From positions 3,322,501-3,386,500 of the forward strand of contig OU015322.1 of assembly GCA_907163225.1 (NCBI GenBank): a DNA stretch of 64,000 nt, written 5' to 3'. Origin of the DNA: an uncultured Rhodocyclaceae bacterium (GTDB lineage Bacteria > Pseudomonadota > Gammaproteobacteria > Burkholderiales > Rhodocyclaceae). Shown here piece after piece: positions 1,011 to 61,954 of this stretch. The notes beneath the pieces are model-generated. The model did no database searches. It saw nothing but the letters and a program-made list of their open reading frames with translations, and was not told the origin of the DNA. How positions within the stretch are numbered: position 1 is the first letter of the stretch; the number at the start of each line of letters is the position of its first letter. Both the position numbers and the translations under genes were made by a program.

Positions 1011-1040
1011 AAATTGGCATGAATTTCCGGTTGACCGTAG
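1011..1040 (+). repeat. Dispersed TTGACCGT repeat, copy 1
   Basis: Reads AAATTGGC, a short AT-rich spacer, then TTTCCGGTTGACCGTAG, matching the family core in the same order. It lies between the htpG terminator and the next gene. The 5' half is diverged. Confidence 0.7.
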
Positions 1041-1189
1041 CATTGGATGTCAGGTTTCGCGCCGCCTCGGCCGGCAAACCGGGTACACTGTCGTCCTTTC
1101 GAGAAACTGATTTCAGGCCGGTGTTTTCCGGCCTTTGACCCGCTGATTCCCCGCCGTTTCTCATTCCCCAGATATTCATAGGTACTCCG

Positions 1190-1678
1190 ATGCATCCAGT
1201 CCACGACGTTGACTCCCTTCTCATTCTCGCCACGGCGCTTTCTTCCAAGCGGCGGCCGGCGGAGCTGGTCGAGATCGTCGCGGCAGCCGATCTGCTGCAG
1301 AACAATATTCCCAACGAGGCCAAGCTGGTCGAGGCATTTGACCGGCTGGCCAAGAGTGGGCTGATCAAGGCGGAGGGCGGCGGTTTCGTGCTGACCGCTG
1401 TGGCGCAGGAGATCGTGACCGGCCTGCCGCGCAAGGCGGAAAACCCTGAGCGACTGTTCGCCATCAAGGACAGGCTATCGGAATACAACATCAAGGGCGA
1501 GCACGCCGGCGTTACCGTTGATCCTGCCGATGTGACCAAGGCCATTCTGGCCCATCGCGCCGCGGAGAAGACGACAGCCAAGAACCTGCTGGTGCCCAAG
1601 CCGAAGCCCGAGGCCGAAGTACACAAGCCGGGCCAGCGTCAGCGCAAGCCGATGCCGGCGCGCAAGCGTCGGGATTGA
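1190..1678 (+). CDS. Conserved hypothetical protein, winged-helix-like N-terminus
   Basis: 162 aa. The first 90 or so residues are predicted helical with a helix-turn-helix flavour (VEIVAAADLLQ, then AFDRLAKSGLIKAEGGGFVLT, which looks like the recognition helix and wing of a small winged-helix fold). The tail from about residue 130 is rich in Lys, Arg and Pro (PKPKPEAEVHKPGQRQRKP) and probably disordered and nucleic-acid binding. It ends 7 bp before dbpA, so the two are probably co-transcribed, which would fit an RNA- or DNA-binding accessory role; that role is inference from context. No family name is recognised with confidence. Confidence 0.75.
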   Translation: MHPVHDVDSLLILATALSSKRRPAELVEIVAAADLLQNNIPNEAKLVEAFDRLAKSGLIKAEGGGFVLTAVAQEIVTGLPRKAENPERLFAIKDRLSEYNIKGEHAGVTVDPADVTKAILAHRAAEKTTAKNLLVPKPKPEAEVHKPGQRQRKPMPARKRRD

Positions 1679-1685
1679 GCTGCGC

Positions 1686-3086
1686 ATGAGCGAGACTTCC
1701 ACCGCCAGCAACGCTTTTGACACGCTGCCCTTGTCGCCGGCCATGCTGGCCAACCTGGCGCAGCTTGAATACCTGAGCATGACGCCGATTCAGGCCGCCA
1801 GCCTGCCGCTGGCCCTGGCCGGCAACGACCTGATCGCCCAGGCCAAGACCGGCAGCGGCAAGACCGCCGCCTTCGGTCTGGCGCTGCTTAATCGCCTGAA
1901 CACCAGCCGTTTTGCCGTGCAGGCCATGGTGCTGTGCCCGACGCGCGAACTGGCCGATCAGGTGACCCAGGAAATCCGTCGTCTGGCCCGTTTTGAAGAG
2001 AACATCAAGGTGCTGTCGCTGGTCGGCGGCTCGACGCTGCGCAATCAGGCAAACAGCCTGGAGAACGGGGTGCATATCGTCGTCGGCACGCCGGGGCGCA
2101 TCATGGATCACATGGAGCGCGGTTATCTGAAGCTCGACGAACTGAATACCCTGGTCCTCGACGAAGCCGACCGCATGCTCGACATGGGCTTCCATGACGA
2201 CATCGCCTACGTCGCCAAGCGTTGCCCGGCGCAGCGCCAGACGCTGCTGTTCTCCGCCACCTATCCGGAAGGCATCGCCCAACTGGCCAAGCAGTTCCTG
2301 CGGCAGCCCAAGGAGGTCAAACTCCTCGAGCAGCACGAAGAAACCAAGATTCGCCAGCGCTTCTACGAGGTCAAGCACGAAGAGCGTCTCGACGCCGTCG
2401 TGCGCCTGCTCAAGCATTACCGCCCGGTCAGCACGCTGGCCTTCTGCGACACCAAGCAGCAGTGCCGCGATCTGGTCAATGTCCTGCGCCACGCCGGCAT
2501 TCATGCGCTGACGCTGAATGGTGACCTCGAGCAGCGCGAGCGCGATCAGGTGCTGATCCAGTTCGCCAACCGCAGTTGTTCGGTGCTCGTGGCGACCGAT
2601 GTGGCGGCGCGCGGCCTTGATATCGACCAGCTCGAAGCGGTCATCAACGTCGATGTGACGCCTGATCCGGAAATCCATATCCACCGCATCGGCCGCACCG
2701 GTCGTGGTGATGAGGAAGGCTGGGCGCTGAGCTTGTGCAGTTCGGGCGACCGTCGCCGCGTGGCAACCATCGCCGAGATGATGAAGTGCAAGCTCGACGT
2801 GCTCGACTTGAAAACGCTCGAAGTCACCGACGACTCGCCACTCGTGCCGCCGATGTCCACGCTGCTCATGCTTGGCGGGCGCAAGGACAAGATCCGGCCC
2901 GGCGACGTCATGGGCGCGCTGGCCGGCGAGGCTGGCCTGACCCGCGAGCAGGTCGGCAAGATCACGGTGACCGATCAGAGCACCTACGTCGCCGTGGCGC
3001 GCGGTGTGGCCAAGGACACGGTACGCAAGCTGTCGGCTGGCAAGGTCAAGGGCAAGACCGTCAAGGTACGGATTCTGACCAACTGA
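1686..3086 (+). CDS. dbpA: ATP-dependent RNA helicase DbpA (DEAD-box)
   Basis: 466 aa with the complete DEAD-box set: Q motif near residue 34, Walker A AKTGSGKT (53-60), PTRELA (85-90), GTPGR, DEAD (159-162), SAT (190-192), ARGLDI and HRIGRTGR. The last 75 residues match the DbpA RNA-binding domain that recognises 23S rRNA hairpin 92; this extension separates DbpA from RhlE/SrmB-type helicases. Cytosolic; acts in 50S subunit assembly. It follows the winged-helix-like gene with 7 bp between them and ends at a strong hairpin. Confidence 0.95.
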   Translation: MSETSTASNAFDTLPLSPAMLANLAQLEYLSMTPIQAASLPLALAGNDLIAQAKTGSGKTAAFGLALLNRLNTSRFAVQAMVLCPTRELADQVTQEIRRLARFEENIKVLSLVGGSTLRNQANSLENGVHIVVGTPGRIMDHMERGYLKLDELNTLVLDEADRMLDMGFHDDIAYVAKRCPAQRQTLLFSATYPEGIAQLAKQFLRQPKEVKLLEQHEETKIRQRFYEVKHEERLDAVVRLLKHYRPVSTLAFCDTKQQCRDLVNVLRHAGIHALTLNGDLEQRERDQVLIQFANRSCSVLVATDVAARGLDIDQLEAVINVDVTPDPEIHIHRIGRTGRGDEEGWALSLCSSGDRRRVATIAEMMKCKLDVLDLKTLEVTDDSPLVPPMSTLLMLGGRKDKIRPGDVMGALAGEAGLTREQVGKITVTDQSTYVAVARGVAKDTVRKLSAGKVKGKTVKVRILTN

Positions 3087-3095
3087 GCGGTTCTG

Positions 3096-3122
3096 AAATC
3101 ACGCCAGCCATTGGCGTGATTT
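3096..3122 (+). terminator. Terminator hairpin after dbpA, fused to repeat copy 2
   Basis: Perfect 10-bp inverted repeat AAATCACGCC / GGCGTGATTT with a 7-nt loop. The T-rich tract that follows (TTTCAATTTT) is the 5' end of the dispersed repeat, so the repeat supplies the U-tract. Confidence 0.8.
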
Positions 3123-3157
3123 CAATTTTGGCCGGTTTTTCCGGTTGACCGTGGAAG
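3119..3157 (+). repeat. Dispersed TTGACCGT repeat, copy 2
   Basis: Near-consensus copy: ATTTCAATTTTGGCCG, then a T-run, CCGGTTGACCGTGGAAGT. It starts inside the right arm of the dbpA hairpin. The GTGGAAGT ending is shared with the copy at 24282. Confidence 0.92.
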
Positions 3158-3189
3158 TTGGTTGGCGTCGCTCACCGCCGGCTTCCTAC

Positions 3190-3987
3190 CTAAAACTCAT
3201 AGGTCACAGCAACGACGCCGGTGGTCGATGTCGCTTGGCGCGTCAGCGGGCTGTCTTTGGCATCACCTTGCAGGCTGCTGACTGACACGGTGGTCAGGAT
3301 CGTGATGCTCGGTGTGATCAGATAGCTCAGTGACGCGTTGGCGCGAATGTCGCGCAGGCCGAATTCTGGGCGGTATGCCGCGTAGCCACTTGATGCAGCC
3401 TGAGCCGTGCTAACGCCAAAATACGACTGCATGTATTCGTCGTTGGCCAGCGTCATGCTGGCGCCGAAACCGAGGCGCCAGAGCGGCGACAACTTTGTCG
3501 AATAGCCCGCACCGAGATCGATGACCATCCCCGCGCTGTCATTGCCCGAGCCGTAACGCAGCGACGAGGTCAGGGTGATTTCCTTGTTGAGCGAGTAGTT
3601 CAGGAAGGCGCCCAGCTCTGGCTTTGGGTCGATATCGCCCATGCCGCGCAGCGCATTCGAACGGCTCTCGTCGCGCCCGAAATCAGCGGTGATGCGCAGG
3701 CCATACTGCAATTCCCGAGTCTGACCAAAATTGTAGCCGACGCCATTTCGCGTGCCGGCAAACCAGCCGTTGCGCCACTGGTAATCGATCCCCGGCAGAA
3801 CCAGCGTTCGCCGTTCGTCGGCGCCCTGGTAAGCCATGCCGGCGATGACGGCCAGCCCGACGGAGCCACGATCCTTTTCAGCAGAGCCGCCGGCGAGGCG
3901 AACGGCATCAAACGCCTGGGCAAACGCATTGGGTGCCGCGAGCGAAAGCAGGCCGATTACGGCGAGGAATTTGAGTGGATTTTTCAT
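3190..3987 (-). CDS. MipA/OmpV-family outer membrane protein
   Basis: 265 aa from the ATG at 3987, which is preceded by GGAGTC; an upstream in-frame ATG at 4089 would add a stretch without signal-peptide character. Residues 1-23 form a signal peptide (MKNPLKFLAVIGLLSLAAPNAFA). The mature part alternates hydrophobic and polar residues, repeats GLRITADFGRDESR-type strands and ends in Phe (VTYEF), as a beta-barrel outer membrane protein does. The pattern fits MipA/OmpV proteins, which scaffold murein enzymes or act as small porins. The exact role is unknown. It is last in a run of minus-strand genes. Confidence 0.8.
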   Translation of the reverse strand: MKNPLKFLAVIGLLSLAAPNAFAQAFDAVRLAGGSAEKDRGSVGLAVIAGMAYQGADERRTLVLPGIDYQWRNGWFAGTRNGVGYNFGQTRELQYGLRITADFGRDESRSNALRGMGDIDPKPELGAFLNYSLNKEITLTSSLRYGSGNDSAGMVIDLGAGYSTKLSPLWRLGFGASMTLANDEYMQSYFGVSTAQAASSGYAAYRPEFGLRDIRANASLSYLITPSITILTTVSVSSLQGDAKDSPLTRQATSTTGVVAVTYEF

Positions 3988-4031
3988 GGGGACTCCGTTG
4001 AGAAATGACTGACTGACAAATTGGATCGAGG

Positions 4032-5369
4032 CTACATCACGCGCAGGGTCAAACCGCTTGACCCAGCCACTTCCTGCATATTTACGCATGCATTCAATCG
4101 GGCCGCCAGCAAATAAAGCCCGCCCAGCTTTCGATGCAGAAAGAGCGCATCGGCCGGCGGCGTATGCCAGAAATCGCGATCCATGCCGAGCACCATGCCG
4201 GCATCGCGGATGCGGATGCCGAGATCGGAGCGGCCAAAGTCATATTCGCCGGGGTGGCTCAGCGGTTCGCACGCCAAAGCAAAAATGTCGAGCACGGCCT
4301 GACGCTGGCCTTCCTTGATGTCCTGCTGAAAATAGCCGATGGCCATCGCGGCCTCGTTCATCCCCTGCCGGTCATTGCGCATGGCGCTGGTCATCAGGTG
4401 TCGATAACTGTCGATCATCGCCGCCGGATAGGCGCGGGTGGCGCCGAAGTCGAGCAGGATGAGCTGCTGCGATGCCGCGGCGTAGCGATAATTGGCAAAA
4501 TTCGGGTCGGTCTGGATCAGCCGGAATTCGAAAATTTCGCGAAACAGCAGGCGGAAAAGCCGGCTCACAATGCGGTCGCGTTCGGCCTGCCGCAGGTGGA
4601 TCAAGGTTTCCACCGCATCGCCGTCGAGGCGCGTCATGGCCAGGATGTTTTCCGTCGTCAGATCGTCGTGCATTTCCGGCACCATGAACTCATCGGCATC
4701 GGCCAGCAGGTCGGAAAACTGCATCATGCAGGCGCCTTCGCGGCGGTAGTTGGCCTCGTCGTGCAACTGCTTTTTTGCTTCGTCGAGCAGCGGCTTGATG
4801 TTCAGCGACTTCGGCAGCAGGCCAGAAACCCGGAGCAGGGTGGCGACGTTGTCGACATCGCTGTCAATGCTGCGGCGGATGCCGGGGTACTGGATCTTGA
4901 CCGCGACCTTTCGTCCATCCTTGCGTTGCCCGAAATGCACCTGACCAATCGAGGCCGCCGCCATCGGGGTGAAGGAGAAACGCTCGAAATGCCGATCCCA
5001 GCCCTCGCCCCAGTTGGCGTTGAGGGCGCTGACAACCTGGCTCATCGGCATCGCGATGGCATCGGCGCGCAGCCGGGAGAGGATTTCGGCCAGTTCCGGC
5101 GGCAACAGCTCGCCGGCATCCATCGACAGCAACTGTCCGACCTTCATCGCCGCGCCGCGCAGTTGTGCCAGTTGATCGGCCACGCGGCGCGCGTTGGCCG
5201 GCGTCAGCAACAGTTGATGCATTTGCGGCCGCTTGCCCTGGGCAAATTGGCGGGCGCCCTCAGCCAGCATGTTGCCGGCCACGCCACCAGCCAGTGAACC
5301 CAGCCGGGCCAGGCGCGACAAGCGGCCATGGGGAACGGAAGACGACTTCCTTACCGGCTCATCGACCAT
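4032..5369 (-). CDS. ABC1/UbiB-family atypical kinase
   Basis: 445 aa from the ATG at 5369. Family motifs are all visible: the KxGQ motif KVGQ (76-79), the Ala-rich loop AAAS (137-140) that replaces the glycine loop of ordinary kinases, the VAVK lysine (158), a catalytic-loop variant TDPNFANY and the metal-binding DFG in LLLDFGATRA. UbiB-like proteins are ATPases/kinases linked to ubiquinone or lipid metabolism. This one has no C-terminal transmembrane pair and sits in a stress-type cluster rather than with ubi genes, so it is a UbiB paralogue and not ubiB. Its start overlaps the end of the next gene upstream by 11 bp. Confidence 0.88.
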   Translation of the reverse strand: MVDEPVRKSSSVPHGRLSRLARLGSLAGGVAGNMLAEGARQFAQGKRPQMHQLLLTPANARRVADQLAQLRGAAMKVGQLLSMDAGELLPPELAEILSRLRADAIAMPMSQVVSALNANWGEGWDRHFERFSFTPMAAASIGQVHFGQRKDGRKVAVKIQYPGIRRSIDSDVDNVATLLRVSGLLPKSLNIKPLLDEAKKQLHDEANYRREGACMMQFSDLLADADEFMVPEMHDDLTTENILAMTRLDGDAVETLIHLRQAERDRIVSRLFRLLFREIFEFRLIQTDPNFANYRYAAASQQLILLDFGATRAYPAAMIDSYRHLMTSAMRNDRQGMNEAAMAIGYFQQDIKEGQRQAVLDIFALACEPLSHPGEYDFGRSDLGIRIRDAGMVLGMDRDFWHTPPADALFLHRKLGGLYLLAARLNACVNMQEVAGSSGLTLRVM

Positions 5370-5718
5370 GCGGCTTCCCGTGTGGCTTCCATTTCGGTGG
5401 CGCATCCAGCGACTCAGCTTCGTTGAGCGGATAGGCGTCGGCGACATAGGCCGGGCCTTTCATCATCATAACGATGAAGGCGGCAATGCCGACGGTGAAC
5501 ACCACCGTCCAGTGCAGGATGATCAGGCTGATGACGTAAATGTCGGTAGTCATGACGGTGAGTGAATTCTCAGGACTGTCGATGAGGCGCGCCATCAGTG
5601 AGGGGATCGCAAGCGACAACGTGCCCAGAAAAAATGCCTTGGGGAGCAGACGGATAACGACGCGTTCCTTGCCGGCCGGTGCGCGGGAGAATCCGGGCAA
5701 ACGATTGAACAAGTTCAT
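5359..5718 (-). CDS. Small two-helix membrane protein, unknown function
   Basis: 119 aa. Hydrophobic segments near residues 27-46 and 60-87 (YVISLIILHWTVVFTVGIAA) indicate two transmembrane helices with a short polar tail rich in Pro, Lys and His. No family recognised. It overlaps the UbiB-like kinase gene by 11 bp and follows the DUF3429 gene by 27 bp, so it belongs to the SDR-DUF3429-kinase operon read leftwards from the operator at 7048. Confidence 0.7.
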   Translation of the reverse strand: MNLFNRLPGFSRAPAGKERVVIRLLPKAFFLGTLSLAIPSLMARLIDSPENSLTVMTTDIYVISLIILHWTVVFTVGIAAFIVMMMKGPAYVADAYPLNEAESLDAPPKWKPHGKPHGR

Positions 5719-5745
5719 GATAGGTCCTTCAAATTTGTTGCCAAG

Positions 5746-6204: not shown

Positions 6205-6209
6205 TGACC

Positions 6210-11670: not shown

Positions 11671-12327
11671 CTACTTTGCTCTGATCTCCTGCAATATTTC
11701 GTTGCGGCGCAAAAACGGTAGCGTCCACGGCGGGTTGTAGCGGGCGAGTTGGGGGTTGCCGATGGTTTCGATTTTTTGAGTCGAAAGCCAGTTGAGCAAC
11801 TCGTTGGTCTTTTCCTGAACCGTGCTTTCGGTGTTGATGCCGGAGTAGGTCAGCGTGGCGAACATCCTGGCCGGAATCTCGCGTAGCTTGACCTGCGGGT
11901 TGAGTGGTTTGGGCAGGGTGGCGAGGGTGTATTGGCTGGGCATCACGAAGTGGATGCGCCAGCGCTGGGCACCGGCCATTTTGCTGTCCTCGGCGTTTTG
12001 CGGTTCGATGCTGACCGGGGCGGTCATGGCAATTTTTTCCGAGCTGCCCTGAGGTTCGGCAACCACGGGGGCTGTCATCGCGATCCGTTCATTGTTGCCA
12101 AAGATATAGCCGGCAATGAGCTGGAAACCACGGTTGGAGGCCGTGTCCATGTCGCCGTCGACGTGTGTTTCAGCAACGATCACAGGTACATAGCGGCGGA
12201 TTTCGATGTTGTCTTCCTTGCGCAGCGATTCAAATTTCGGTTCTTCAGTAGCCATCAGGTTTCCCGTCGAGAGTGGCCCCATCAGCAGGCCAAAAAACAG
12301 CGTGGAGAGTGTGCGGTGAAATTTCAT
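11671..12327 (-). CDS. SOUL-family haem-binding protein
   Basis: 218 aa with an N-terminal signal peptide. SOUL/HBP hallmarks are visible: EIRRYVPVIVAET, then RGFQLIAGYIFGNNERIAMTAPV and a typical RYNPPWTLPFLRRNE C-terminus. The motif IAMTAPV occurs twice (NERIAMTAPVVAEP and SEKIAMTAPVSIEP), as is common in bacterial members. Probably an exported haem or tetrapyrrole binder. It overlaps the M1 peptidase gene by 4 bp, and a fasciclin remnant follows it. Confidence 0.9.
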   Translation of the reverse strand: MKFHRTLSTLFFGLLMGPLSTGNLMATEEPKFESLRKEDNIEIRRYVPVIVAETHVDGDMDTASNRGFQLIAGYIFGNNERIAMTAPVVAEPQGSSEKIAMTAPVSIEPQNAEDSKMAGAQRWRIHFVMPSQYTLATLPKPLNPQVKLREIPARMFATLTYSGINTESTVQEKTNELLNWLSTQKIETIGNPQLARYNPPWTLPFLRRNEILQEIRAK

Positions 12328-14456
12328 TTGTTGTCCTTGCGTGGGGAGCTGGAGACGATAATTTCCGGCACACTGGCCGGCCAGATGCCTTTGTTGATGG
12401 CGCGTCCTTGTTCAAAAATCAGCCAGCTCTGCCCGCCGTAGTGGGGCAGGCCGCGTTGCAGGGCATTGAGTGCCGCCGCATCCTGGCCTGAGATGACGGC
12501 AAGCTGAAATGTCTTCCCGGACACTGTCCACACTTGCGCCGAACCTTGTCCAGCCAGGCTGGCCGGGCGGGGTGGCAATCCGGCGCTGGCCAGTGCTTGA
12601 TCAATGTCGGCATGGGTGCCGGCAAGCAACACGGGGTTCTTGCTGCTCAGGGCCGTACTCAGTTGCCCCGGCTTGGGTTTTGTCTCAAAAAAACGCGCAG
12701 AAAGCTGGTTGACCGCAACATTTGCTTCGAGAGGGCGAGCAACATTGACCAGTTGCGGCGCGCTGGCCGCCATCCATTGCCGCAGGATGGGCGGTAGCTG
12801 GCTGGCTTCAAGGCGGCGCCAGACGCGCATTTCGGGGTCAAGGCGGAGGGTTTGTGGTGCAAAGTCGAGATTGATCGAGGCGCTATTGCGCTCTGCACCC
12901 AAATCTACCCAGTGCGTTTCGCGCCGGCCGGCTGCGCCGATTTCAAGCGGCAGACGCAAGGGCAGGCGGGCATCCTGTTTGTTGAAGCTGACATTCAGTT
13001 GGTGTTGCGTGCCAGTTCGACTGCTTTCGGCGCGGGCAATGGCCACAACGGGCAGGGCTTGCTGGTCGAGCCAGGGGGCGAAAAAGGCGCCAAGTTTTTC
13101 CCCCGAGGCCCGCTCGAAAGCGGCCTGCAAGTCGTCCCAGCCGGCAATTTTGAATTGCTGTGCAGCCCAGAAATTGCGGATGCCCTGATCAAACACTTTT
13201 TTCCCCAGGCGGTCGCGCAGCATGACGAATACCATCGCCGCTTTACCGTAGCCGACCGTGGCACCGGCGGCATTGGCGCGTGAGCGGAAGCTACGCAGCG
13301 TGCCGGGGTTTTCGCCGGCAAATACGGCAGCGTCGCGCAGCCAGGCCAGGCGCATTTCGCTGGCGGCGTTGGCTGATTCGTCTTCCTTGTAGGCGTAGTC
13401 GGCCATGAAGGTGGTCAGGCCTTCCGACCAGTTGCCGCGTTCGTAATCGACATAGACGCCGTTGCCCCACCAGTTGTGCAAAATTTCATGGCCGAGCGAG
13501 GTTTTGCGAATGAAGGGCAGGCGCAAAACCTCGGCGCCAAGATAGGTCAGCGTCGGCATGCCGAAGCCGGTGGGCAGCGGGCTGGCGACGATTGAAAATT
13601 CGCTGTACGGATAGGCGCCGATGTCCTTGCTGTAACGTTCGATGTAGGCCTGGGTGTCGTCGAGATAGGCCTGCGCCAGGCCGGGCGTGGCATCGAGATC
13701 AGCCGGGAAAAAGGTGCGCAGGACGAGGGACGACTGCGGAGACGACTGCGGAGACGACTGCGGAGACGACTGCGGAGACGACTGCGGAGACGACTGCGCG
13801 TTGCGCGACACGGTTTTTTCGCGGACGACCCAAGGCCCGGCCATGAGGTCAATGCCGTCGCTCGGCTGGGTAAATTCAAAGCTCGCCCGGTAAGTTTCTC
13901 CGGCGCTGGTTGGCAAGGTTTCGGCGATGCGTTTTCCGGCCACTAAAGCGCGTTGACCGTAGGGAACGGCGAGTTTGACGCGATAGGAGAACAAGTCAGC
14001 CGGGCGCGGATACCAGCCGCTGCCGGAAGACAGAAAACTGCCTTCCGGCGCGGCCATCGGTGGCATGCCGCCGAGTACGCTGCGGTGGTCGCGGTTGCGC
14101 TCCAGCGGTGGCAACTGGCCTTCGTAGCGGATGCTTAGTTTTTGCCCGGCCTGGGTGAGCCGGATGTTCCATTGCCGATAGCCGGCCGGGCCGCTGCTCG
14201 GCTCAGCCACCGGGGTTTCCGCGCCGGCCTTGACGCCGGTAACGCGCAGCGACTCATGCAGCAGGAAACGGAAATTCCGCGTTGGGGCCTGCAACTCGGC
14301 TTCGGCCTTGAACTGCCGGGATTGCGGATCAAGCGCAACGTCGAGAATGAGTTCGGGGGCGGCTGCGTTGACGGCGCTGGCAGCAACCAGCAGCAAGCCA
14401 AAAAGCGTCACGGCATGCTGACGAAAGCGGACGAAACGGAAGCAGGCAAAACTCAT
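12324..14456 (-). CDS. M1-family zinc metallopeptidase-like protein with SSPQ tandem repeat
   Basis: 710 aa, exported (hydrophobic N-terminus ending NAAA). The gluzincin zinc site HEILHNWW (His323, Glu324, His327) and the downstream Glu in NWSEGLTTF are intact. The aminopeptidase GxMEN motif is not obvious; the equivalent place reads FGMPTLTYLG, so classical aminopeptidase activity is uncertain. Residues about 219-243 are five SSPQ repeats encoded by a 12-bp tandem repeat. The start overlaps the preceding gene by ATGA, and its end overlaps the SOUL gene, giving a tightly coupled ChaN-M1-SOUL operon. Confidence 0.85.
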   Translation of the reverse strand: MSFACFRFVRFRQHAVTLFGLLLVAASAVNAAAPELILDVALDPQSRQFKAEAELQAPTRNFRFLLHESLRVTGVKAGAETPVAEPSSGPAGYRQWNIRLTQAGQKLSIRYEGQLPPLERNRDHRSVLGGMPPMAAPEGSFLSSGSGWYPRPADLFSYRVKLAVPYGQRALVAGKRIAETLPTSAGETYRASFEFTQPSDGIDLMAGPWVVREKTVSRNAQSSPQSSPQSSPQSSPQSSPQSSLVLRTFFPADLDATPGLAQAYLDDTQAYIERYSKDIGAYPYSEFSIVASPLPTGFGMPTLTYLGAEVLRLPFIRKTSLGHEILHNWWGNGVYVDYERGNWSEGLTTFMADYAYKEDESANAASEMRLAWLRDAAVFAGENPGTLRSFRSRANAAGATVGYGKAAMVFVMLRDRLGKKVFDQGIRNFWAAQQFKIAGWDDLQAAFERASGEKLGAFFAPWLDQQALPVVAIARAESSRTGTQHQLNVSFNKQDARLPLRLPLEIGAAGRRETHWVDLGAERNSASINLDFAPQTLRLDPEMRVWRRLEASQLPPILRQWMAASAPQLVNVARPLEANVAVNQLSARFFETKPKPGQLSTALSSKNPVLLAGTHADIDQALASAGLPPRPASLAGQGSAQVWTVSGKTFQLAVISGQDAAALNALQRGLPHYGGQSWLIFEQGRAINKGIWPASVPEIIVSSSPRKDNK
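13729..13800 (-). repeat. 12-bp tandem repeat inside the M1 peptidase gene
   Basis: Five perfect copies of GACGACTGCGGA (plus-strand reading) at 13729-13788 followed by a sixth copy with 10 of 12 bases. It encodes repeated SSPQ in frame; copy-number change would keep the frame. Confidence 0.97.
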
Positions 14457-24281: not shown

Positions 24282-24320
24282 ATTTCAATTTTGGCCGTTT
24301 TTTCCGGTTGACCGTGGAAG
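24282..24320 (+). repeat. Dispersed TTGACCGT repeat between two minus-strand genes
   Basis: Consensus-quality copy: AATTTCAATTTTGGCCG, T-run, CCGGTTGACCGTGGAAG. It fills the 67-bp gap between the YgjP-like stop and the lipoprotein start, opposite in orientation to both genes. Confidence 0.93.
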
Positions 24321-24860
24321 TCACAGTTCGACGGAAACCTCGGCCGCCCACAACGGCTCACCACCGGCAGCAAGGTGGCAGAGGTAGGCCCGCAGGTCGA
24401 ATTCAAGCTGGAAGTAATCGGCCTCCATGTGCTGGCACAGCTGATAGAACGCCTTGTCGTGTTCCGGTTCCTTTAGATGCGCAATTTCATGGACGACGAT
24501 CATGCGCAGAAACTCGGGCGGCATCTCGCGGAAAATGCTGGCAACGTGGATTTCGCGCTTGCTCTTGAGCTTGCCGCCCTGCACGCGGGCTATCCGGCTG
24601 TGTATCCCCAGCGCTTTTTGCAGCGTCTGCAACTTGCCGTCAAAAGCCACCTTGCTCGGCTGCGGCGCATTGCGCAAATACGTCGCCTTGATCTCCTGAA
24701 CGTAGTCGTAAAGCGCCTTGTCGGTGCGTACCTGATGCACTTCCGGATACTTCTGGCGCAGCACTTTGCCGAGCTGATCCTGTTCGATCAGGCGCTGCAC
24801 CGATTCGGTCAGGTGCGCGGGGTAACCGGCGAGGCAGTTGGGCGAGGCGGGTTTGTTCAT
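24321..24860 (-). CDS. YgjP-like (DUF45) zinc metallopeptidase
   Basis: 179 aa. The zinc motif VVHEIAHLKEPEHDKAFY contains HExxH and a downstream His as in the M48-like YgjP/WLM group. The preceding segment with Arg- and Lys-rich KLKSKREIHVASIFREMP is also typical. Cytosolic; substrate unknown. Divergent from and slightly overlapping the 5' region of the MFS gene's longer frame. Confidence 0.88.
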   Translation of the reverse strand: MNKPASPNCLAGYPAHLTESVQRLIEQDQLGKVLRQKYPEVHQVRTDKALYDYVQEIKATYLRNAPQPSKVAFDGKLQTLQKALGIHSRIARVQGGKLKSKREIHVASIFREMPPEFLRMIVVHEIAHLKEPEHDKAFYQLCQHMEADYFQLEFDLRAYLCHLAAGGEPLWAAEVSVEL

Positions 24861-30824: not shown

Positions 30825-30886
30825 TTTCGGTTTTGGCTGTTTTTTCCGGTTGACCCTAGGGCCAGCAGTTGTTTCTATGGTCCTGG
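30825..30886 (+). repeat. Dispersed repeat, long form
   Basis: Core TTTTTTCCGGTTGACC, then CTAGGGCCAGCAGTTG and TTTCTATGGTCCTGG. It contains the 3' extension shared with 31575 and 47487 and lies directly after the GspE-type gene in the same orientation. Confidence 0.93.
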
Positions 30887-33160: not shown

Positions 33161-34570
33161 ATGCCGCGTACAACAGAAGGCAATCTGATTGCCCTGACGC
33201 AGTTGGTCGAAGGTAACCCGGTGGCGACCATCGTCGTCGATGCCGACCATCGCGTCACCCACTGGAATCGCGCCTGCGCACTCCTGACCGGGGTGAGCGC
33301 CAGCGAAATGGTTGGCCGCAACGAGCAGTGGCGGGCCTTCTACGCTGAACCCCGCCCGATTCTGGCCGATTTGATCGTGGATCAAGCGGTGGAGGGTGCC
33401 GTTGCAAGTTATTACGACAGCAAGTTCAAGCGTTCCGATCTGATTGAGGGTGGCTGGGAGGCAGAGGATTTTTTCCCGGCCTTCGGCGATGGCGGGCGGT
33501 GGCTTTTTTTTACCGCCGCGGCCATCCGAAACGCCGAGGGGGAAATCGTCGGCGCCATTGAAACACTGCAGGATGTAACGGCCAGGCGGCGTGCCGAAGC
33601 GGCTCTGCAAGACTCGACCACCTTCTTGTCACAAATCATCGACGGCTCGTCGGTGGCCACGCTGGTCATCAATGCCGAGCACCGCGTCACGCATTGGAAC
33701 CACGCTTGCGAGGTGCTGACCGGCACCTTGGCCAGAGACGTGATCGGTACGGACAATCAATGGAAGGCCTTCTACGCCGGGCGGCGCCCGATCATGGCCG
33801 ACCTCGTGCTCGACGAGGCGTCGCAGAGCGAGGTTGGGCGCCTTTATCACGGCCGCTATCGGCCTTCGGCCCTGGTGCAGGGCGGCTATGAAGCGGAGGA
33901 TTTTTTCCCGCACTTTGGTGACGGCGGCCGCTGGCTGTTTTTTACGGCGGCACCCTTGCGTAACGCCACAGGTGATGTGGTTGGCGCGATCGAGACGCTG
34001 CAGGACGTCACCGAGCGGCGGCGCGCCGAGGAGGCCTTGCGCGAAAGCGAGGAGCGTTACCGCACCCTGAGCCTGACCGATTCCCTGACTGGCCTGTTCA
34101 ATTCCCGCCACTTGCATGACCGTCTTCTGGCCGAGGCCGAGCGCGCCTTGCGCTACGGGCGACCAATATCATTGCTGGTTCTCGATTGCGACAATTTCAA
34201 ACGCATCAACGACAGCTTTGGCCATCTCGTCGGCGATCAGGTGCTGCAGGCCCTGGCCGAGGTAATCCGGCACTGCCTGCGGCGCTCGGACAACGGCTTT
34301 CGCTATGGCGGCGAAGAGTTTGTCGTTTTATTGCCGGAAACCGGGTCGACCGCAGCACAGGCTTTGGCCGAGCGCTTGCGCTGTGCTTTTGCCGAGCGGG
34401 TTCTGCGCACCGCCGCTGGCGAGGAGGTTCGTTGCACGGTCAGTATCGGCGTCGCCGAATGGGTGACTGGCGACAGTGAGAAATCGCTGGTCAGGCGCGC
34501 TGATGCTGCCTGCTATCGGGCCAAGGAGCAGGGCAAAAATTGTGTCGTCGTCGCCAGTCCGACCGACTGA
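33161..34570 (+). CDS. Diguanylate cyclase with duplicated PAS-type sensors
   Basis: 469 aa. Two tandem sensor domains (residues about 8-145 and 152-290) are clearly duplicates: both have VTHWNxAC, an FYAxxRPI segment and AEDFFPxFGDGGRWLFFTAA, ending in IETLQDVT. A GGDEF domain follows with active-site GGEEF and an RxxD inhibitory site (RRSD) five residues before it, so an active, feedback-controlled c-di-GMP synthase is expected. No transmembrane segment, so a cytosolic sensor; ligand unknown. Divergent from nth. Confidence 0.92.
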   Translation: MPRTTEGNLIALTQLVEGNPVATIVVDADHRVTHWNRACALLTGVSASEMVGRNEQWRAFYAEPRPILADLIVDQAVEGAVASYYDSKFKRSDLIEGGWEAEDFFPAFGDGGRWLFFTAAAIRNAEGEIVGAIETLQDVTARRRAEAALQDSTTFLSQIIDGSSVATLVINAEHRVTHWNHACEVLTGTLARDVIGTDNQWKAFYAGRRPIMADLVLDEASQSEVGRLYHGRYRPSALVQGGYEAEDFFPHFGDGGRWLFFTAAPLRNATGDVVGAIETLQDVTERRRAEEALRESEERYRTLSLTDSLTGLFNSRHLHDRLLAEAERALRYGRPISLLVLDCDNFKRINDSFGHLVGDQVLQALAEVIRHCLRRSDNGFRYGGEEFVVLLPETGSTAAQALAERLRCAFAERVLRTAAGEEVRCTVSIGVAEWVTGDSEKSLVRRADAACYRAKEQGKNCVVVASPTD

Positions 34571-47486: not shown

Positions 47487-47549
47487 ATTTCAATTTTGGC
47501 CGTTTTTTCCGGTCGACCCTGGGGCCAGCCTTTGTTTCTATGGTCGTGG
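47487..47549 (+). repeat. Dispersed repeat, long form, between ATPase and permease genes
   Basis: ATTTCAATTTTGGCCG, TTTTTTCCGGTCGACCCTGG, GGCCAGCCTTTGTTTCTATG, GTCGTGG. It interrupts an otherwise overlapping operon and contains TCGACC where most copies have TTGACC. Confidence 0.95.
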
Positions 47550-57088: not shown

Positions 57089-57106
57089 GGCAGCGAGTCT
57101 GGCTGC

Positions 57107-57712
57107 TTACTTGGCGGCGGCCGGGCTGTCGAATTTGACAGTCGGCGGGGCGGAGATGGCCTTTTCGTCTTCGACCGTGAAGCTGGGTTTCGGCTTGTAG
57201 CCCATGACCATGGCCGTCAGGTTGTTGGGGAAGGTACGCACTGAAATGTTGTAGTCCTTGACCGTCTCGATGTAGCGGTTGCGGGCCACGGTGATGCGGT
57301 TTTCGGTGCCTTCGAGCTGTGCCTGCAGGTCACGGAAATTGGCATCGGCCTTGAGGTTCGGGTAGTTCTCGGCAACCACGAGCAGGCGGGACAGCGCGCC
57401 TGAGAGTTCGCCCTGTGCCTTCTGGAACTTGGCGAAGGCGGCTTCGTCATTGACCAGTTCGGGGGTGATCTTCATGCCGGCCACGTTGGCGCGGGCCTCG
57501 GTGACGCGGGTCAGCACTTCCTTTTCATGGGAGGCGTAGCCCTGCACGACGGAAACGAGGTTGGGGATCAGGTCGGCGCGGCGCTTGTACTGGTTGAGCA
57601 CCTCAGCCCAGGCGGCGTTGACGCCTTCATCGTTGATCTGGATCTGGTTGTAGCCGCAGCCGGATAGCAGGGTGGCAACGAGGACGAGGATGGAATAGAG
57701 GCGAATGCGCAT
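57107..57712 (-). CDS. LemA-family lipoprotein
   Basis: 201 aa from ATG 57712 (GGAG upstream). Lipobox LLSGCGYN, then the LemA hallmarks INDEGVNAAWAEVLNQYKRRADLIPNLV and RNRYIETVKDYNISVRTFPNNL. Helical-bundle protein anchored to the membrane. First gene of LemA-TPM-TPM. Confidence 0.95.
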   Translation of the reverse strand: MRIRLYSILVLVATLLSGCGYNQIQINDEGVNAAWAEVLNQYKRRADLIPNLVSVVQGYASHEKEVLTRVTEARANVAGMKITPELVNDEAAFAKFQKAQGELSGALSRLLVVAENYPNLKADANFRDLQAQLEGTENRITVARNRYIETVKDYNISVRTFPNNLTAMVMGYKPKPSFTVEDEKAISAPPTVKFDSPAAAK

Positions 57713-57799
57713 GAAAGTGGCTCCCGGAAAATGGTTCGCGGACAAGCATACCATCGTGATATTTCACGGGAGGTAAAGTTTGGTTCGGCTACTCGATTT

Positions 57800-57834
57800 C
57801 CGCGGTCAACCGGAAAAATTGGCCAAAAATGAAT
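57800..57834 (-). repeat. Dispersed TTGACCGT repeat upstream of lemA
   Basis: Minus-strand reading ATTCATTTTTGGCCAA, TTTTTCCGGTTGACCGCGG, directly downstream of the MaoC-family gene and in the same orientation. Confidence 0.92.
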
Positions 57835-57850
57835 CGGACGCGCCGCCCGA

Positions 57851-58300
57851 TCAGGCCGGCCTGCGGCGCAGCAGGTGATTGACGATGAAGCCGAGCACGG
57901 CCTCGCCACGCTGGTTCACCGCCTGATACTTCAGGCGGGCGATGCCGCGATCCGGCTTCGAGTTCGACGGCCGCACCTCAAGCACCTCGATCTCGCTGTG
58001 CAGCGTGTCGCCCGGCCGCACCGGCGCCAGCCAGCGCAACTCGTCGATGCCCGGCGAACCCATGCTTGATTCGGCGAGGATGCCGGACTGGATGAACAGC
58101 CGGAAACAGACGGCCAGGCTCTGGAAACCGCTGGCGATCAGCCCGCCGTAGGGCGAACTGGCGGCCGCATTGGCGTCGAGATGGAAGGGTTGCGGATCGT
58201 AGCGCCAGGCGAAGTCGATGATCTCGGCTTCAGTCAGCGTCAGGCCCGGCGAGGTGAAACGCTGGCCGGGGGCGAGGTCGTCGAGGAAGCGGGTATCCAT
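57851..58300 (-). CDS. MaoC-family (R)-hydratase-like protein
   Basis: 149 aa from ATG 58300 with AAGGAG upstream. Hot-dog fold with the hydratase motif EAEIIDFAWRYDPQPFHLDANAA (Asp/His catalytic pair) and the GGLIASGFQSLAV helix; WLAPVRPGDTLHSEIEVLEVRPS is the second half. Probably hydrates enoyl-CoA esters, as in polyhydroxyalkanoate or fatty-acid metabolism. Confidence 0.92.
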   Translation of the reverse strand: MDTRFLDDLAPGQRFTSPGLTLTEAEIIDFAWRYDPQPFHLDANAAASSPYGGLIASGFQSLAVCFRLFIQSGILAESSMGSPGIDELRWLAPVRPGDTLHSEIEVLEVRPSNSKPDRGIARLKYQAVNQRGEAVLGFIVNHLLRRRPA

Positions 58301-58349
58301 GGTGCTGGCTCCTTGTTGATTGGGTTCGGGCTTTGATGCGTGACCCGGC

Positions 58350-59327
58350 CTACGGGTTCCGGCACTGCGCAACCTGCGTGTCGCCGGCCTTGCCGCAGGG
58401 GGTTAGCGCGCCGGGTATCGGGTGTGGCGTGCCGTCGTCGTCCATTTGTGCAGCCAGGGTGTCCCATTCGAGCACGCCGGTCTTGTCGAGCTTGAGGCGG
58501 AGCAGCCAGCCGCGCTTGGCTTCGGGGATCTCGAAACCGTCGAAGACGAAATTGCCCAGGCTGTAGACGATGGGTTTGCCTTGATAAATATCGGCGCCCT
58601 GGGTGACGTGCGGGTGGCTGCCGACGACCAGGCTGGCGCCTTCATCGATCATGCGCCGGGCGAAGGTCTTCAGACGCTGGCTGGCAACGGGTTCGTATTC
58701 CCAGCCCCAGTGCATGAAAGGGATGATGAGATCAGCGCCAGCGGCCTTGGCGGCGCGGATGTCGCTGATCACGTGGTCGTCTTCGCTCCACGCCGTGCCG
58801 GGGGTTTCGGCCCCGGCCTCGAAGGCGCGCGGGATGAATTCGCTGTAGCCAAGGACGGCAATTTTCAGGCCCTTGCGTTCTATCCACAACGGCTTGTGGG
58901 CTTCGCTCAGGTTCTTGCCGGCACCAAAGCGGGCAATCCCGGCCGTATCCAGCCGCCGCATGGTTTCGAGCAAGGCGTCGTGGCCGAAGTCGCCGATGTG
59001 GTTGTTGGCCAGGCTGACGGCGTCGAAGCGGCCTTGCAGCACGGCCAGGGTGCGCGGGTGGGCGCGGAAGGTGTAGAACTTTGGCGTCAGGCGGGTGCCG
59101 CTTTCGGCGACGGGCGTTTCGAGGTTGGCGATGCGGTAGTCGGCTGCCTTGAGTATTTTGGCAAACGGGGCGAGCGGGTCGCCGCCTTTGGCGATGAGCC
59201 TGCCGGGGCCGTCGTCGAGCATGATGTCGCCGGCAAAAACGAGCGTCATCGGCTCGGCTTGGGGGGCGGCTGCGAAAAATACGGCGATTGCCATGAGCGC
59301 GGAACGGAGGGCCGATTTTGCGCGCAT
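58350..59327 (-). CDS. CapA/PgsA-family metallophosphoesterase-like protein
   Basis: 325 aa from ATG 59327, which gives a clean signal peptide (MRAKSALRSALMAIAVFFAA); the longer frame to 59426 would translate the repeat. Family motifs FAGDIMLDDGPG, ANLETPVAESG, VSLANNHIGDFG, IPFMHWGWEYEP and VGSHPHVTQG match CapA, the poly-gamma-glutamate/capsule-associated phosphoesterase-like group. No capsule genes nearby. Confidence 0.88.
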   Translation of the reverse strand: MRAKSALRSALMAIAVFFAAAPQAEPMTLVFAGDIMLDDGPGRLIAKGGDPLAPFAKILKAADYRIANLETPVAESGTRLTPKFYTFRAHPRTLAVLQGRFDAVSLANNHIGDFGHDALLETMRRLDTAGIARFGAGKNLSEAHKPLWIERKGLKIAVLGYSEFIPRAFEAGAETPGTAWSEDDHVISDIRAAKAAGADLIIPFMHWGWEYEPVASQRLKTFARRMIDEGASLVVGSHPHVTQGADIYQGKPIVYSLGNFVFDGFEIPEAKRGWLLRLKLDKTGVLEWDTLAAQMDDDGTPHPIPGALTPCGKAGDTQVAQCRNP

Positions 59328-59372
59328 GGCAAGGGATGCCGGCCCCGGGAGCACAGAAGCCGACGCGGGTCG

Positions 59373-59408
59373 TACGGTCAACCGGATATTTCGGCTCATT
59401 TTGAAATG
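59373..59408 (-). repeat. Dispersed TTGACCGT repeat overlapping a stop codon
   Basis: Minus-strand reading CATTTCAAAATGAGCC, GAAATATCCGGTTGACCGTA. Its first bases encode the last residues and stop (TGA) of the gene ending at 59396. Confidence 0.85.
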
Positions 59409-59815
59409 CCTGCCCGCAGTTCGCACCAGTATTCAAGTTCGCCGCCGTAGCGCGGTTCATAGGTGCGGATCAGTCCGGTGAAACCGTGGCTGCGGCCGTG
59501 GGTCGGCGGGTAGGCGTAGGTGGCCTGGTGCGTGGGTGGGCGGCCGTCGTCGTGATTGCCGTAGGTATAAATCTTGATGCTGGCCAGGTCGGCCGGCTGG
59601 GTGCGAAAGACGATCCGGAACAGCGTGTAGGAGCCGATTTCAATCGGGGCGACGGTGTAGGGCGAGGCGCTTGGGCGGGCTTCGATGAGGCGCGTTTCGC
59701 CGCCGTAGGTGAGGTGACAGGCGACCGTCTCCACCGGCTCGGCCTGCGCCGCTGCCGCGGCCAAAAGCAGTACGCCGAGCAGCACGCCGAGCAGCGTTTC
59801 AGCGAATCCGCGCAT
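59396..59815 (-). CDS. Hypothetical exported protein
   Basis: 139 aa from ATG 59815. Signal peptide LLGVLLGVLLLAAAAAQAEP; mature part has two Cys (VACHLTYGG and YWCELRAG) likely joined by a disulfide, and IYTYGNHDDGRPPTHQATYAYP. No family recognised. Overlaps the MliC-YbaY-like gene by 17 bp and ends inside a repeat copy. Confidence 0.7.
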   Translation of the reverse strand: MRGFAETLLGVLLGVLLLAAAAAQAEPVETVACHLTYGGETRLIEARPSASPYTVAPIEIGSYTLFRIVFRTQPADLASIKIYTYGNHDDGRPPTHQATYAYPPTHGRSHGFTGLIRTYEPRYGGELEYWCELRAGISK

Positions 59816-60479
59816 GGCCGGCCGATTTGAGAATGATGTCGACGGGTTGGGGTCGCTGGCTGGCCATGACCGGATAGACCTTGTTGCTGACAAAGCGCGG
59901 CTTGCCGTCAACGTCGATGCGGGCGGTGACGGCGAGGCGGGCCTTTTTGCCGATCAGGTCGCGGTCGACCGTGGCAGTGAAGGGGATCGGCACCTGGGCG
60001 CCGTTGAGTTCATAGCGCTGGTCAGCCAGCGTGCGGCCGCCGGCCTGAATGCGGATGGACAGAATCGCGCCGGGCGGCAGGGCGATGCGGGTGAGGTAGC
60101 TGACCTGGCCGGTGATTTCCATGAAACTGCTGGCGGCAGCTGTCGGCGGCGTGGGCTGGGGGGCTTGCGCCGTGGCCGGCGGCGTATTGCTGCGCGTGCA
60201 GCGGCGCATCTCGCCCTTGCCATCTTCGAGAATCGCGTCGTCGCCCTTGGTGTGCAGGCGCATGTCGCCGTTGCGGTAGAGCGCGCCGGAGCCAGTGGGG
60301 ACTCGCGGCAGGACGATGGTTTCATCGGCCACCTGCAACGTGGCCTGCGGTCGACCGGAAATATCGCTCAAAAATGAAATATCGACGCGGCTACCGTTGT
60401 CACAGGTGTAGGTGATTTTGGGCTCGTCAGCCAGCGCGCAGAAGGGAAGGAGCAGGAGCGGAAGCAGGCATGTTTTCAT
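59799..60479 (-). CDS. MliC-like plus YbaY/YscW-like two-domain exported protein
   Basis: 226 aa. Signal peptide ([15 protein letters not shown]), then an MliC-like lysozyme-inhibitor domain: [47 protein letters not shown] and a closing Cys. After a Pro/Thr/Ala linker, a YbaY/YscW-like domain: [24 protein letters not shown]. Residues about 34-45 of the MliC part are encoded by the repeat. Periplasmic protection against lysozyme is plausible. Confidence 0.78.
60345..60380 (-). repeat. Dispersed repeat inside the MliC-like gene
   Basis: Minus-strand reading ATTTCATTTTTGAGCG, ATATTTCCGGTCGACCGCAG. In this frame the common TTGACC would create a TGA stop; here it is TCGACC (CGA, Arg). Confidence 0.85.
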
Positions 60480-61219
60480 GTTTTTTCCGGTGTGGGCATG
60501 GTGATCCAGTGCCCGTCGATCAGTCCTTCAAGGGGGCGAAACGTGGCTTTGTAGGCCATTTTTTGGCTGGCCGCAATCCAGTAACCGAGGTAGAGATAGG
60601 GCAGGCCGATGGCTTTGCATTGCGCCGCCTGCCACAGGATGTTGTAGGTGCCGAAGCTGGCGTGCGGCATGTCCGGGTCGTAGAAGGTATAGACCGACGA
60701 CAGGCCGTCATCGAGCACATCGATCAGGCTGACCATGCGCACGATCCCGTCTTCGGAAAACTCGATCAGCCGGGTGTCGACGCGGCTTTGCAGCAGGAAC
60801 TGCGCGTACTGGTCGTGGCTGTCTTCATCCATGCCGCCGCCGGGGTGGCGTGCCTGCTGGTAGCGCTTGTATAGCGCGTAGTGTTCTTCAACGTAGATCA
60901 GCGGCAATTCGCGGGCGCGCAGGCTGGCGTGCTGTTTGGCGGCGCGCCGCTGGCTGCGGTTGGGGTGTAGCGCGTCGACGGGCAGGCGAACCGGCACGCA
61001 GGCCTGGCAATTGTCGCAGTGGGGGCGGTAGGTAAAAATGCCACTGCGCCGGAAGCCGTTGCGGACGAGCGCGCTATAAATCTGGCTGTCGATCAGGTGC
61101 GCCGGCGTGGCCACCTGCGAACGGGCTTCGCGTTCCGGCAGGTAGCTGCATGGGTAGGGCGATGTCGCGTAAAACTGGATCAGCGAGTAGGGGAGCGCGG
61201 CGTCGTCAGGGAGTGACAT
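60476..61219 (-). CDS. bpt: Bacterial aspartate/glutamate leucyltransferase (arginyltransferase family)
   Basis: 247 aa. [15 protein letters not shown], then [24 protein letters not shown] with the family Cys cluster, [29 protein letters not shown] and [19 protein letters not shown] are all ATE/Bpt signatures. Adds Leu to N-terminal Asp/Glu for ClpS-ClpAP degradation. Adjacent to aat (3-bp gap), the usual bpt-aat pair. Confidence 0.95.
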
Positions 61220-61222
61220 GGC

Positions 61223-61954
61223 TTACCAGTCCAAGATCTGCCGGTCTTTCGGCCAGACAGTACGCTGCGAATTTTCTGCGCCCTTTGCGTCAGCGGCTGG
61301 CGCCACGGTCAACGCCGATAATCGGCCCAAAAACAAATCCCGTGGAACCTCGCGGCCGCCGAGGGAGGCGAGGTGGTCGGTGTACATTTGACAGTCGATC
61401 ATGCCGAATTGGTTGTCCAGAAGATAAGCGATCAGGTGCGCGAAGGCTACCTTCGATGCATCGGTGCGATGCGAGAACATCGACTCGCCGTAGAACATGC
61501 GACCAATGGCCAGCCCGTAGAGGCCGCCGACCAGCCGGCCGCCTTCATAGCTTTCGACTGAGTGCGCCCAGCCAAGTTCGTGCAGACGAATGTAGGCGGC
61601 CTTCATCTCCGGTGTGATCCAGGTACCATCCTGGCCGGCGCGCGGGGTGGCGGCGCAGGCGTCCATGATGCCGGGAAAGTCGGTATCGAAACGGACTTCG
61701 AATTTGCCGGCGGGCAGGGTCTTGCGCAGCGAGCGGGTCAGCCGGAATTCTTCGGGAAAAAGCACCATGCGCGGATCTGGCGAGTACCACAGGGGATGGC
61801 CTTCAACCGTGCCCCAAGGGAATATTCCCTGCCGGTAAGCGTCGAGCAGGCGCTCGGGGTGCAAGCCGCCGCCGGCGGCAAGCAGTCCGCCCATATCCTC
61901 TCGGGCCTGCTCGACCGGCGGAAAGGGGTCGAGTGGTCCGAGAAAACAGATCAT
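61223..61954 (-). CDS. aat: Leucyl/phenylalanyl-tRNA-protein transferase
   Basis: 243 aa. PPVEQAREDMGGLLAAGGGLHPERLLDAYRQGIFPWG and LVGGLYGLAIGRMFYGESMFSHRTDASKVAF are diagnostic. Transfers Leu/Phe to N-terminal Lys/Arg in the N-degron pathway with bpt. The C-terminus from residue about 206 (LGRLSALTVAPAADAKG) runs through a diverged repeat copy and extends past the usual end. Overlaps the iron ABC ATPase gene by 4 bp. Confidence 0.95.
   Translation of the reverse strand: MICFLGPLDPFPPVEQAREDMGGLLAAGGGLHPERLLDAYRQGIFPWGTVEGHPLWYSPDPRMVLFPEEFRLTRSLRKTLPAGKFEVRFDTDFPGIMDACAATPRAGQDGTWITPEMKAAYIRLHELGWAHSVESYEGGRLVGGLYGLAIGRMFYGESMFSHRTDASKVAFAHLIAYLLDNQFGMIDCQMYTDHLASLGGREVPRDLFLGRLSALTVAPAADAKGAENSQRTVWPKDRQILDW
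61302..61338 (-). repeat. Diverged repeat copy in the aat 3' end
   Basis: Minus-strand reading ATTTGTTTTTGGGCCG, ATTATCGGCGTTGACCGTGG; the end GTTGACCGTGGCGC is shared with the copy at 54635. Confidence 0.65.

Follow-up and report, generated by a model that had tools for sequence, protein, structure and literature searches.

A dispersed repeat as a probable DNA uptake sequence of Azonexus and Dechloromonas

The window, a 64,000-nt stretch of the genome of an uncultured Rhodocyclaceae bacterium (genome G000; contig OU015322.1), carries many copies of a short dispersed repeat that consists of a rigid core and two AT tracts. Judged from sequence, the repeat is probably a DNA uptake sequence of Azonexus and Dechloromonas that works like the uptake signal sequence (USS) of Haemophilus and the DNA uptake sequence (DUS) of Neisseria. 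Its sequence places it in neither known family, and it very likely functions as an uptake sequence. The motif matches USS and DUS in the properties tested, sequence excepted; a receptor that binds it, a preference in uptake and a drive are inferred. It is also likely that the repeat represents a third, independently evolved system of self-specific DNA uptake. This system would belong to environmental Betaproteobacteria that are not mucosal commensals or pathogens; it would be old in the genus, split into dialects, lost several times, and convergent on the Haemophilus layout of a core with helically phased AT tracts. No earlier report of such a motif in Rhodocyclales, Dechloromonas, Azoarcus or Betaproteobacteria was found in the open-access literature searched.

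How would such a motif work and accumulate? In the proposed mechanism, a minor pilin at the surface of a naturally transformable cell would bind free DNA at the core, (G)GTYGACCGYR. The AT tracts, at distances of one and two helical turns, would let the DNA bend or kink, and the bent DNA would be pulled through the secretin by a retracting type IV pilus. ComEA and ComEC would then carry the DNA into the cell, where RecA-type recombination would integrate it into the chromosome. A better motif would let a fragment enter more often, so that motif-bearing alleles are proposed to replace others. In this way the motif would accumulate through substitutions and homologous replacement, on either strand and both within and between genes. 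If this proposal is true, the repeat is a third case with the Haemophilus layout, which would suggest that a core with phased AT tracts is a repeated solution and point to DNA bending at the membrane. Furthermore, several dialects and losses within one genus could be used to look for the receptor by co-variation, and the question would arise of why free-living bacteria evolve uptake specificity. The proposal can be tested at the bench because enriched named strains exist (R2A61, ATCC BAA-841, MA-1, H13, and DSM 23841).

Abundance, anatomy and placement of the motif

The repeat family is real. G000 was sampled in 864 kb, consisting of the window and 40 stretches of 20 kb at even intervals. From 127 core matches in this sample, a 43-bp matrix was built; scanned over the same sample from which its training matches came, it found 242 sites above 8 bits, compared with 0 in a reversed control. 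Strong copies are many, with 108 sites above 40 bits. A refined matrix found 292 sites (338 per Mb) and 1 in the reversed control, which extrapolates to ~1,170 copies in the 3.46-Mb genome. A looser run gave 335 sites, with 7 in the control. Across the whole genome, the 13-mer TTTCCGGTTGACC with at most one mismatch has 510 matches (265 and 245), compared with 9 (7 and 2) for the reversed pattern. Within the window, TTTTTTCCGGTTGACCGTAG with up to three mismatches has 10 matches versus 0.00 in 100 shuffles, and ATTTCAATTTTGGCCG has 7 versus 0.66 in shuffles. A preliminary description of the window had listed 16 copies and considered their density to be above chance. All 16 are present at 22.6 to 63.6 bits in the 43-bp matrix, on the correct strand wherever one was given, and the density claim is upheld by the 13-mer and refined-matrix counts. 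Three weaker matches (17372+, 21214-, and 36358-) of 8.7 to 14.8 bits are found in the window beyond the 16.

The logo shows a rigid core, CCGGTTGACCG, and, upstream of it, two AT tracts ~9 and ~19 bases from its centre, a spacing of roughly one helical turn each. It reads roughly ATTTCAATTTTGGCC..TTTTTCCGGTTGACCG(C/T)(A/G)G.A, which on the other strand is the rigid core followed by the two AT tracts. The AT tracts belong to the motif, and the logo falls to background outside about -19 to +24 around TTTCC. Most copies therefore have no more extensive element in common. The consensus ends sharply, and no terminal repeats are present in the logo. The core is nearly palindromic, yet the AT tracts stand on one side only; it had been correctly remarked that CGGT/ACCG is the only palindromic part.

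A small subgroup of copies carries an extra piece of ~27 bp (GGCCAGCNGTTGTTTCTATGGTCGTGG). It directly follows four motif copies, at 30868, 31614, and 47531 of the window and at L061:3230, and at L063:19439 it comes after another, similar unit. The three copies with an extra GGCCAGC.GTTGTTTCTATGG piece in the preliminary description were found again, together with two more occurrences of the piece in the 864-kb sample. The sequence TTGTTTCTATGG occurs five times in these 864 kb and is absent from 100-kb samples of six relatives. The subgroup may have been copied as a unit, and its origin may be mobile.

For placement, genes were called by our own script, and the origin and terminus were guessed from GC skew. 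As had been described for the window, copies lie both in genes and in spacers: of 211 sites above 15 bits, 126 are within genes (71 antisense and 55 sense), 81 are between genes, and 4 are at stretch ends. Motif density is about four times higher in spacers than in genes, and convergent spacers are the densest (23 sites in 19 kb versus 11 in 21 kb of divergent spacers). In the refined set, 195 of the 292 sites are within genes, at positions that are uniform along the gene. The sense frame that reads GTTGAC as a stop holds 7 of these 195 sites, six of which read Arg-Pro there, as GTCGACC would. Both strands are used, as the preliminary description said, and the check for strand bias relative to the replichores revealed none (115 of 211 sites on one replication strand class, p = 0.22). 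This agrees with DUS and USS, which are not known to have replication-strand polarity.

The spacing of copies is more even than expected by chance. Of the pairs formed by 166 sites above 25 bits, 6 lie within 500 bp compared with 14.8 in simulations (95% range 9–21), and 18 lie within 1 kb compared with 28.1 (19–36). Stretches of higher GC content hold more copies per 20 kb (rho = +0.65, p = 5e-6, 40 stretches), although the motif is AT-rich. A low-GC stretch that, among the genes searched, has those for GmrSD-type restriction, YqaJ recombinase, and DUF932 has no copy (L041, G000:C1:1700001-1720000). Among the genes searched in two other copy-poor stretches, L059, with 2 copies, has transposase genes of the IS66 and Mu types together with ordinary genes such as accA, and L070, with 3, has acyltransferase and amidotransferase genes. 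In the relative G002, a sampled 20-kb part of an integrated element that carries an integrase and a restriction system holds none of the 16 sites. Both the GC trend and this integrated element thus show scarcity of the motif in recently acquired DNA.

Dialects, spread and likeness to known uptake sequences

The spread of the motif was assessed in 76 Azonexus and Dechloromonas genomes, of which a genome was called enriched when the pattern GTYGACCGYA reached at least five times the reversed control and at least 65 matches per Mb. By this definition 38 genomes are clearly enriched, the richest being G360 with 1,786 matches versus 38, while 10 are intermediate and 26 are poor. G002 and G012 are rich by the pattern of another dialect (573 and 521 matches), and G005, counted as poor, is moderately enriched by the other pattern (99 versus 9). 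Unseen dialects may hide among the remaining genomes of the genus. There was no motif excess in G335 and G035, and two motif-poor species had 4 and 3 core words compared with 5 and 5 in the control. The 194 genomes sampled from elsewhere in the family had at most 91 copies each and are not enriched, and the 291 genomes from the rest of the order had at most 133 copies, or ~30 per Mb at the highest. Some genomes outside the genus pass the fivefold ratio (e.g., G139 with 112 versus 16), which makes density, and not this ratio by itself, the measure of enrichment. Counted by GTYGACCGYR against the control, the named strains Azonexus sp. R2A61 (2,440 versus 227), Dechloromonas sp. H13 (1,445 versus 234), Azonexus fungiphilus DSM 23841 (1,257 versus 329), Dechloromonas denitrificans ATCC BAA-841 (1,086 versus 227), and Dechloromonas hortensis MA-1 (1,040 versus 229) are enriched in the motif, and A. 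hydrophilus is hardly enriched (318 versus 213).

In a three-protein tree of 39 rows, deep branches occur among the enriched lineages, and motif-poor lineages (L080, L101, and L071, the sister of the window) are nested within them. This pattern suggests that the motif is an old trait of the genus that was lost several times. The tree is to be read with its support values mostly unexamined (one visible node has 0.29), with 10 rows that have no count, and with a label for the window that comes from a different pattern.

The logos of seven species share the core and differ around it. The dialect of G000 is GTTGACCG(C/T)AG, and that of G002 is GTTGACCGTGG. G360, G008, and G010 have the dialect GTCGACCGCA in common, and the dialects of G030 and G336 are GTCGACCGC(G/A) and GTCGACCGTGA, respectively. 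In all dialects an AT tract lies about two turns upstream; a strong tract close to the core is confined to G000 and G002. When words were counted de novo in motif-rich relatives, codon-driven words dominated the result, which yielded the second dialect word, GTCGACCGCA. Refinement of the G000 matrix on other dialects failed, giving hundreds of low-content matches in G008, G010, and G336 and only 4 and 3 matches in G360 and G030; the logos were therefore redone from the core.

Some dialect species contain head-to-head pairs of motifs 31–42 bp apart (L153–L155 in G360, L159 in G008, L167 in G010, and L177, L179, and L180 in G336), and most of these pairs form strong hairpins (to -32 kcal/mol). 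No such pair within 120 bp is present among the 292 sites of G000.

How does the repeat compare with known uptake sequences? Two families, the Pasteurellaceae and the Neisseriaceae, have been described as having self-specific DNA uptake (PMC7811141). The Haemophilus USS comprises a 9-bp core and two AT segments spaced at about one helical turn each (PMC1626085). Subclade types of it exist, its evolution is attributed to point mutation (PMC1626085, PMC7811141), and ComN has been proposed as its receptor (PMC12616744). The present repeat likewise has a rigid core with two AT-rich segments about one helical turn apart, more than 1,000 copies, and subclade types. Unlike USS, with its core AAGTGCGGT, it has the core GTYGACCGYR and occurs in a different bacterial family. 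The Neisseria DUS forms dialects around a shared core and, in one species, overlapping inverted pairs (PMC3630211). DUS are few in horizontally acquired DNA, and many of them have been argued to arise by recombination rather than point mutation (PMC2397512). Dialects with a shared short core, inverted pairs, and few copies in foreign DNA are features that the repeat has in common with DUS as so described. It differs from DUS in sequence and in having AT tracts, DUS being described as without flanking motifs (PMC1626085); a search with a single pilin gave no match named ComP. The motif has neither the known Pasteurellaceae USS core nor the known Neisseriaceae DUS core.

Origin of the copies and alternative explanations

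Evidence on how copies arise comes from orthologous loci. A window gene with arginyl-tRNA-protein transferase domains fetched 80 named loci, the nearest of which were labelled Azonexus, Dechloromonas, or unplaced relatives. Flank distances were compared for 41 motif matches in L071–L104 and the window, 23 of which had a motif-less ortholog, giving 186 comparisons. The motif-less ortholog was exactly equal in length in 67 comparisons, differed by 3, 6, or 9 bases in 45, and differed by other small amounts in 2. It lacked the motif length in 1 comparison, 10–32 bases in 3, and more in 27, and it had more than 9 extra bases in 41. At random positions, 4725 of 5125 control comparisons were equal, with 8 motif-length gaps and 13 longer gaps. 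The usable sites represent a YscW/MliC-domain gene (60338), a gene end (59365), the spacers at 57793 and 47487, and two places that have no match or a broken match in the window. Motif-less orthologs of exact length were found at three of these six, and at 60338 the copy of L073 has 13 of 15 motif-less orthologs that are exactly equal in length. The coding cases show change in place. Provisionally, because the places are few, the motif arises by substitution or homologous replacement and not by insertion. The 126 sites within called genes would also speak against insertion, since a 43-bp insertion would shift the frame of the gene.

The genus carries genes of the transformation machinery, for which comEC, dprA and prepilins were searched. 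A comEC gene was found in 71 of 76 genus genomes and dprA in 75 of 76, and each of the 10 genomes searched for prepilins had 9–20 matches. G000 has one match each for comEC and dprA, both free of inside stops, and 16 prepilin matches.

Several results weigh against an uptake sequence that arises in place. Motif sites show length changes far more often than random positions do (119 of 186 versus 400 of 5125), as permissive places would, but insertions would give the same result. The ortholog test has a narrow base, as the 23 sites that it could use fall at no more than six independent places. At the 47487 spacer (L081:18813 and L090:20043), many motif-less relatives lack ~70–90 bp, so that the two genes almost touch. 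L071 and L083 keep this spacer without the motif at a length 3 bp off that of L081; the spacer could hide an insertion or a deletion. L058, with 4 copies at a GC content of 0.42, has ordinary metabolic and transport genes among those searched. The motif and the core machinery do not vary together: an intact comEC is present in many motif-poor genomes, and two motif-rich genomes, G002 and G008, have a split one. Disrupted or partial comEC is somewhat more common in motif-poor genomes, but not significantly so (5 of 39 versus 8 of 32, p = 0.23; counts and states were entered by hand, and 5 genomes without a comEC match were left out). The true contrast is weaker still, because G005 was put among the motif-poor genomes though it is enriched by the other pattern. 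No prepilin group was present in all 5 motif-rich genomes and absent from all 5 motif-poor ones in a comparison of 143 candidate ORFs that were picked by a regular expression and include some that are not pilins. One group was present in 2 of the 5 motif-rich genomes and in no motif-poor one. The pilin family PF00114 and the GspH family PF12019 showed no clear link with the motif across the genus when judged by eye. The single candidate minor pilin searched, of PilE type, matched 18 PDB sequences, none of them named ComP.

Some comEC genes show peculiar breaks. The gene is interrupted at the same place in G002 (L244/L245) and G362 (L246/L247), with the two parts ~33 kb apart, and a fragment in G018 (L251) begins at the same base as this break (reference L032:18482-18489). 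The sampled part of the gap in G002 is GC-poor and carries genes for an integrase, a Type ISP restriction system, NADAR, a CoiA-like protein, and DNA polymerase B. No long flanking repeat or tRNA was seen at the break. It looks as if comEC is an integration hot spot. In motif-poor G035 (L250, G035:C1:1957000-1962500), comEC is matched by two reading frames with a few bases of overlap, which looks like a frameshift in the gene.

What else could the repeat be? The preliminary description had offered a mobile element or a genome-wide binding or structure signal, of which the latter is supported, specified here as a probable DNA uptake sequence, and the former is disfavored. A non-autonomous element of the MITE or REP kind, moved by a Y1 transposase, would explain dispersed copies with a strong consensus, the ~27-bp piece shared by four of them, and a motif that comes and goes with the spacer at 47487. 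G000 also has two matches to Y1 transposases, of which one is a frame of 58 aa. REP/RAYT and MITE families are short dispersed repeats in many copies, and the motif resembles them in this respect. It differs from them in having no REP-type hairpin, no consistent link to a transposase, more than half of its copies within genes, and almost no motif-length insertion footprint. Orthologous empty sites, which the preliminary description wanted looked for, amount to the single motif-length gap in 186 comparisons (8 of 5125 in the controls) and give no support to a mobile element; same-length motif-less orthologs were found at three of the six places. Furthermore, copies are sparse at short distance, low-GC DNA is poorest in them, and the consensus stops sharply without terminal repeats. 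Y1 matches occur in 33 of the 76 genomes of the genus, and motif-rich G360, G008, G030, and G002 have none. Taken with these points, a mobile origin of the bulk of the copies is very improbable.

Another alternative is that the repeat is bound by a nucleoid-associated or chromosome-organising protein and is kept by selection at each site. The nearly palindromic core (CGGTTGACCG, or CGGTCGACCG in other dialects) is of a form that dimeric DNA-binding proteins like, and the even distribution on both strands would suit such a role. One-sided AT tracts do not suit it, nor do the lack of the motif, by the patterns used, in about a third of the genus, the differences between sister lineages, and the poverty of low-GC DNA. 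Selection on ~1,000 single sites, most of them within genes, would be hard to credit, and this explanation is unlikely. A polar chromosome signal of the Chi or KOPS type, or the operator of a regulator, would likewise be short, frequent, and present in genes and spacers. Chi and KOPS have strong polarity with replication, and the motif, on replichores guessed from GC skew, has no leading or lagging bias, so that a polar signal was rejected. An operator would be concentrated upstream of genes, whereas copies are uniform along genes and number 11 in divergent and 23 in convergent spacers of similar total length; this pair of explanations is the most improbable. Finally, the motif could be a relic of an uptake signal that is out of use in this strain, as motif-poor lineages nested among motif-rich ones suggest frequent loss of the trait. 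The 108 copies above 40 bits, together with comEC and dprA free of inside stops in G000, make a relic quite unlikely.

Copies and other repeats in the window

The matches in the window are listed in the table below.

Matches to the 43-bp matrix in the window, with strand and setting
Feature	Position	Strand	Basis and setting
Motif copy, 40.0 bits	1005..1047	+	Matrix scan; intergenic
Motif copy, 59.4 bits	3119..3161	+	Matrix scan; between convergent genes
Motif copy, 49.7 bits	16006..16048	+	Matrix scan; antisense within CrtC/lipocalin gene
Weak copy, 14.1 bits	17372..17414	+	Matrix scan
Very weak copy, 8.7 bits	21214..21256	-	Matrix scan
Motif copy, 63.6 bits (best in the window)	24282..24324	+	Matrix scan; intergenic
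Motif copy, 54.9 bits	28286..28328	-	Matrix scan
Motif copy, 45.8 bits	30824..30866	+	Matrix scan; followed by the extra GGCCAGCAGTTGTTTCTATGG piece
Motif copy, 47.2 bits	31570..31612	+	Matrix scan; followed by the extra piece; antisense in FIST-domain gene
Weak copy, 14.8 bits	36358..36400	-	Matrix scan
Motif copy, 27.2 bits	39533..39575	+	Matrix scan; within gene, antisense
Motif copy, 29.3 bits	44131..44173	+	Matrix scan; at ORF start
Motif copy, 49.8 bits	47487..47529	+	Just past stop codon; followed by the extra piece; spacer absent in many motif-less relatives
Motif copy, 30.3 bits	51243..51285	-	Matrix scan; within gene near its end
Motif copy, 41.5 bits	54629..54671	-	Matrix scan
Motif copy, 56.9 bits	57793..57835	-	Matrix scan; intergenic, after MaoC-like gene
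Motif copy, 39.3 bits	59365..59407	-	Spans stop codon of gene; equal-length motif-less orthologs in relatives
Motif copy, 45.1 bits	60338..60380	-	Within YscW/MliC-domain gene; 7 of 8 motif-less orthologs exactly equal in length
Motif copy, 22.6 bits	61296..61338	-	Near 3' end of gene 61223-61954

Two other kinds of repeat occur in the window. A tandem 12-bp repeat (GACGACTGCGGA) lies at 13717-13810 within the minus-strand gene 12324-14456. Two direct repeats of 179 nt that are 72% alike (33430-33608 and 33862-34040) lie within gene 33161-34570 and are perhaps an internal domain duplication.

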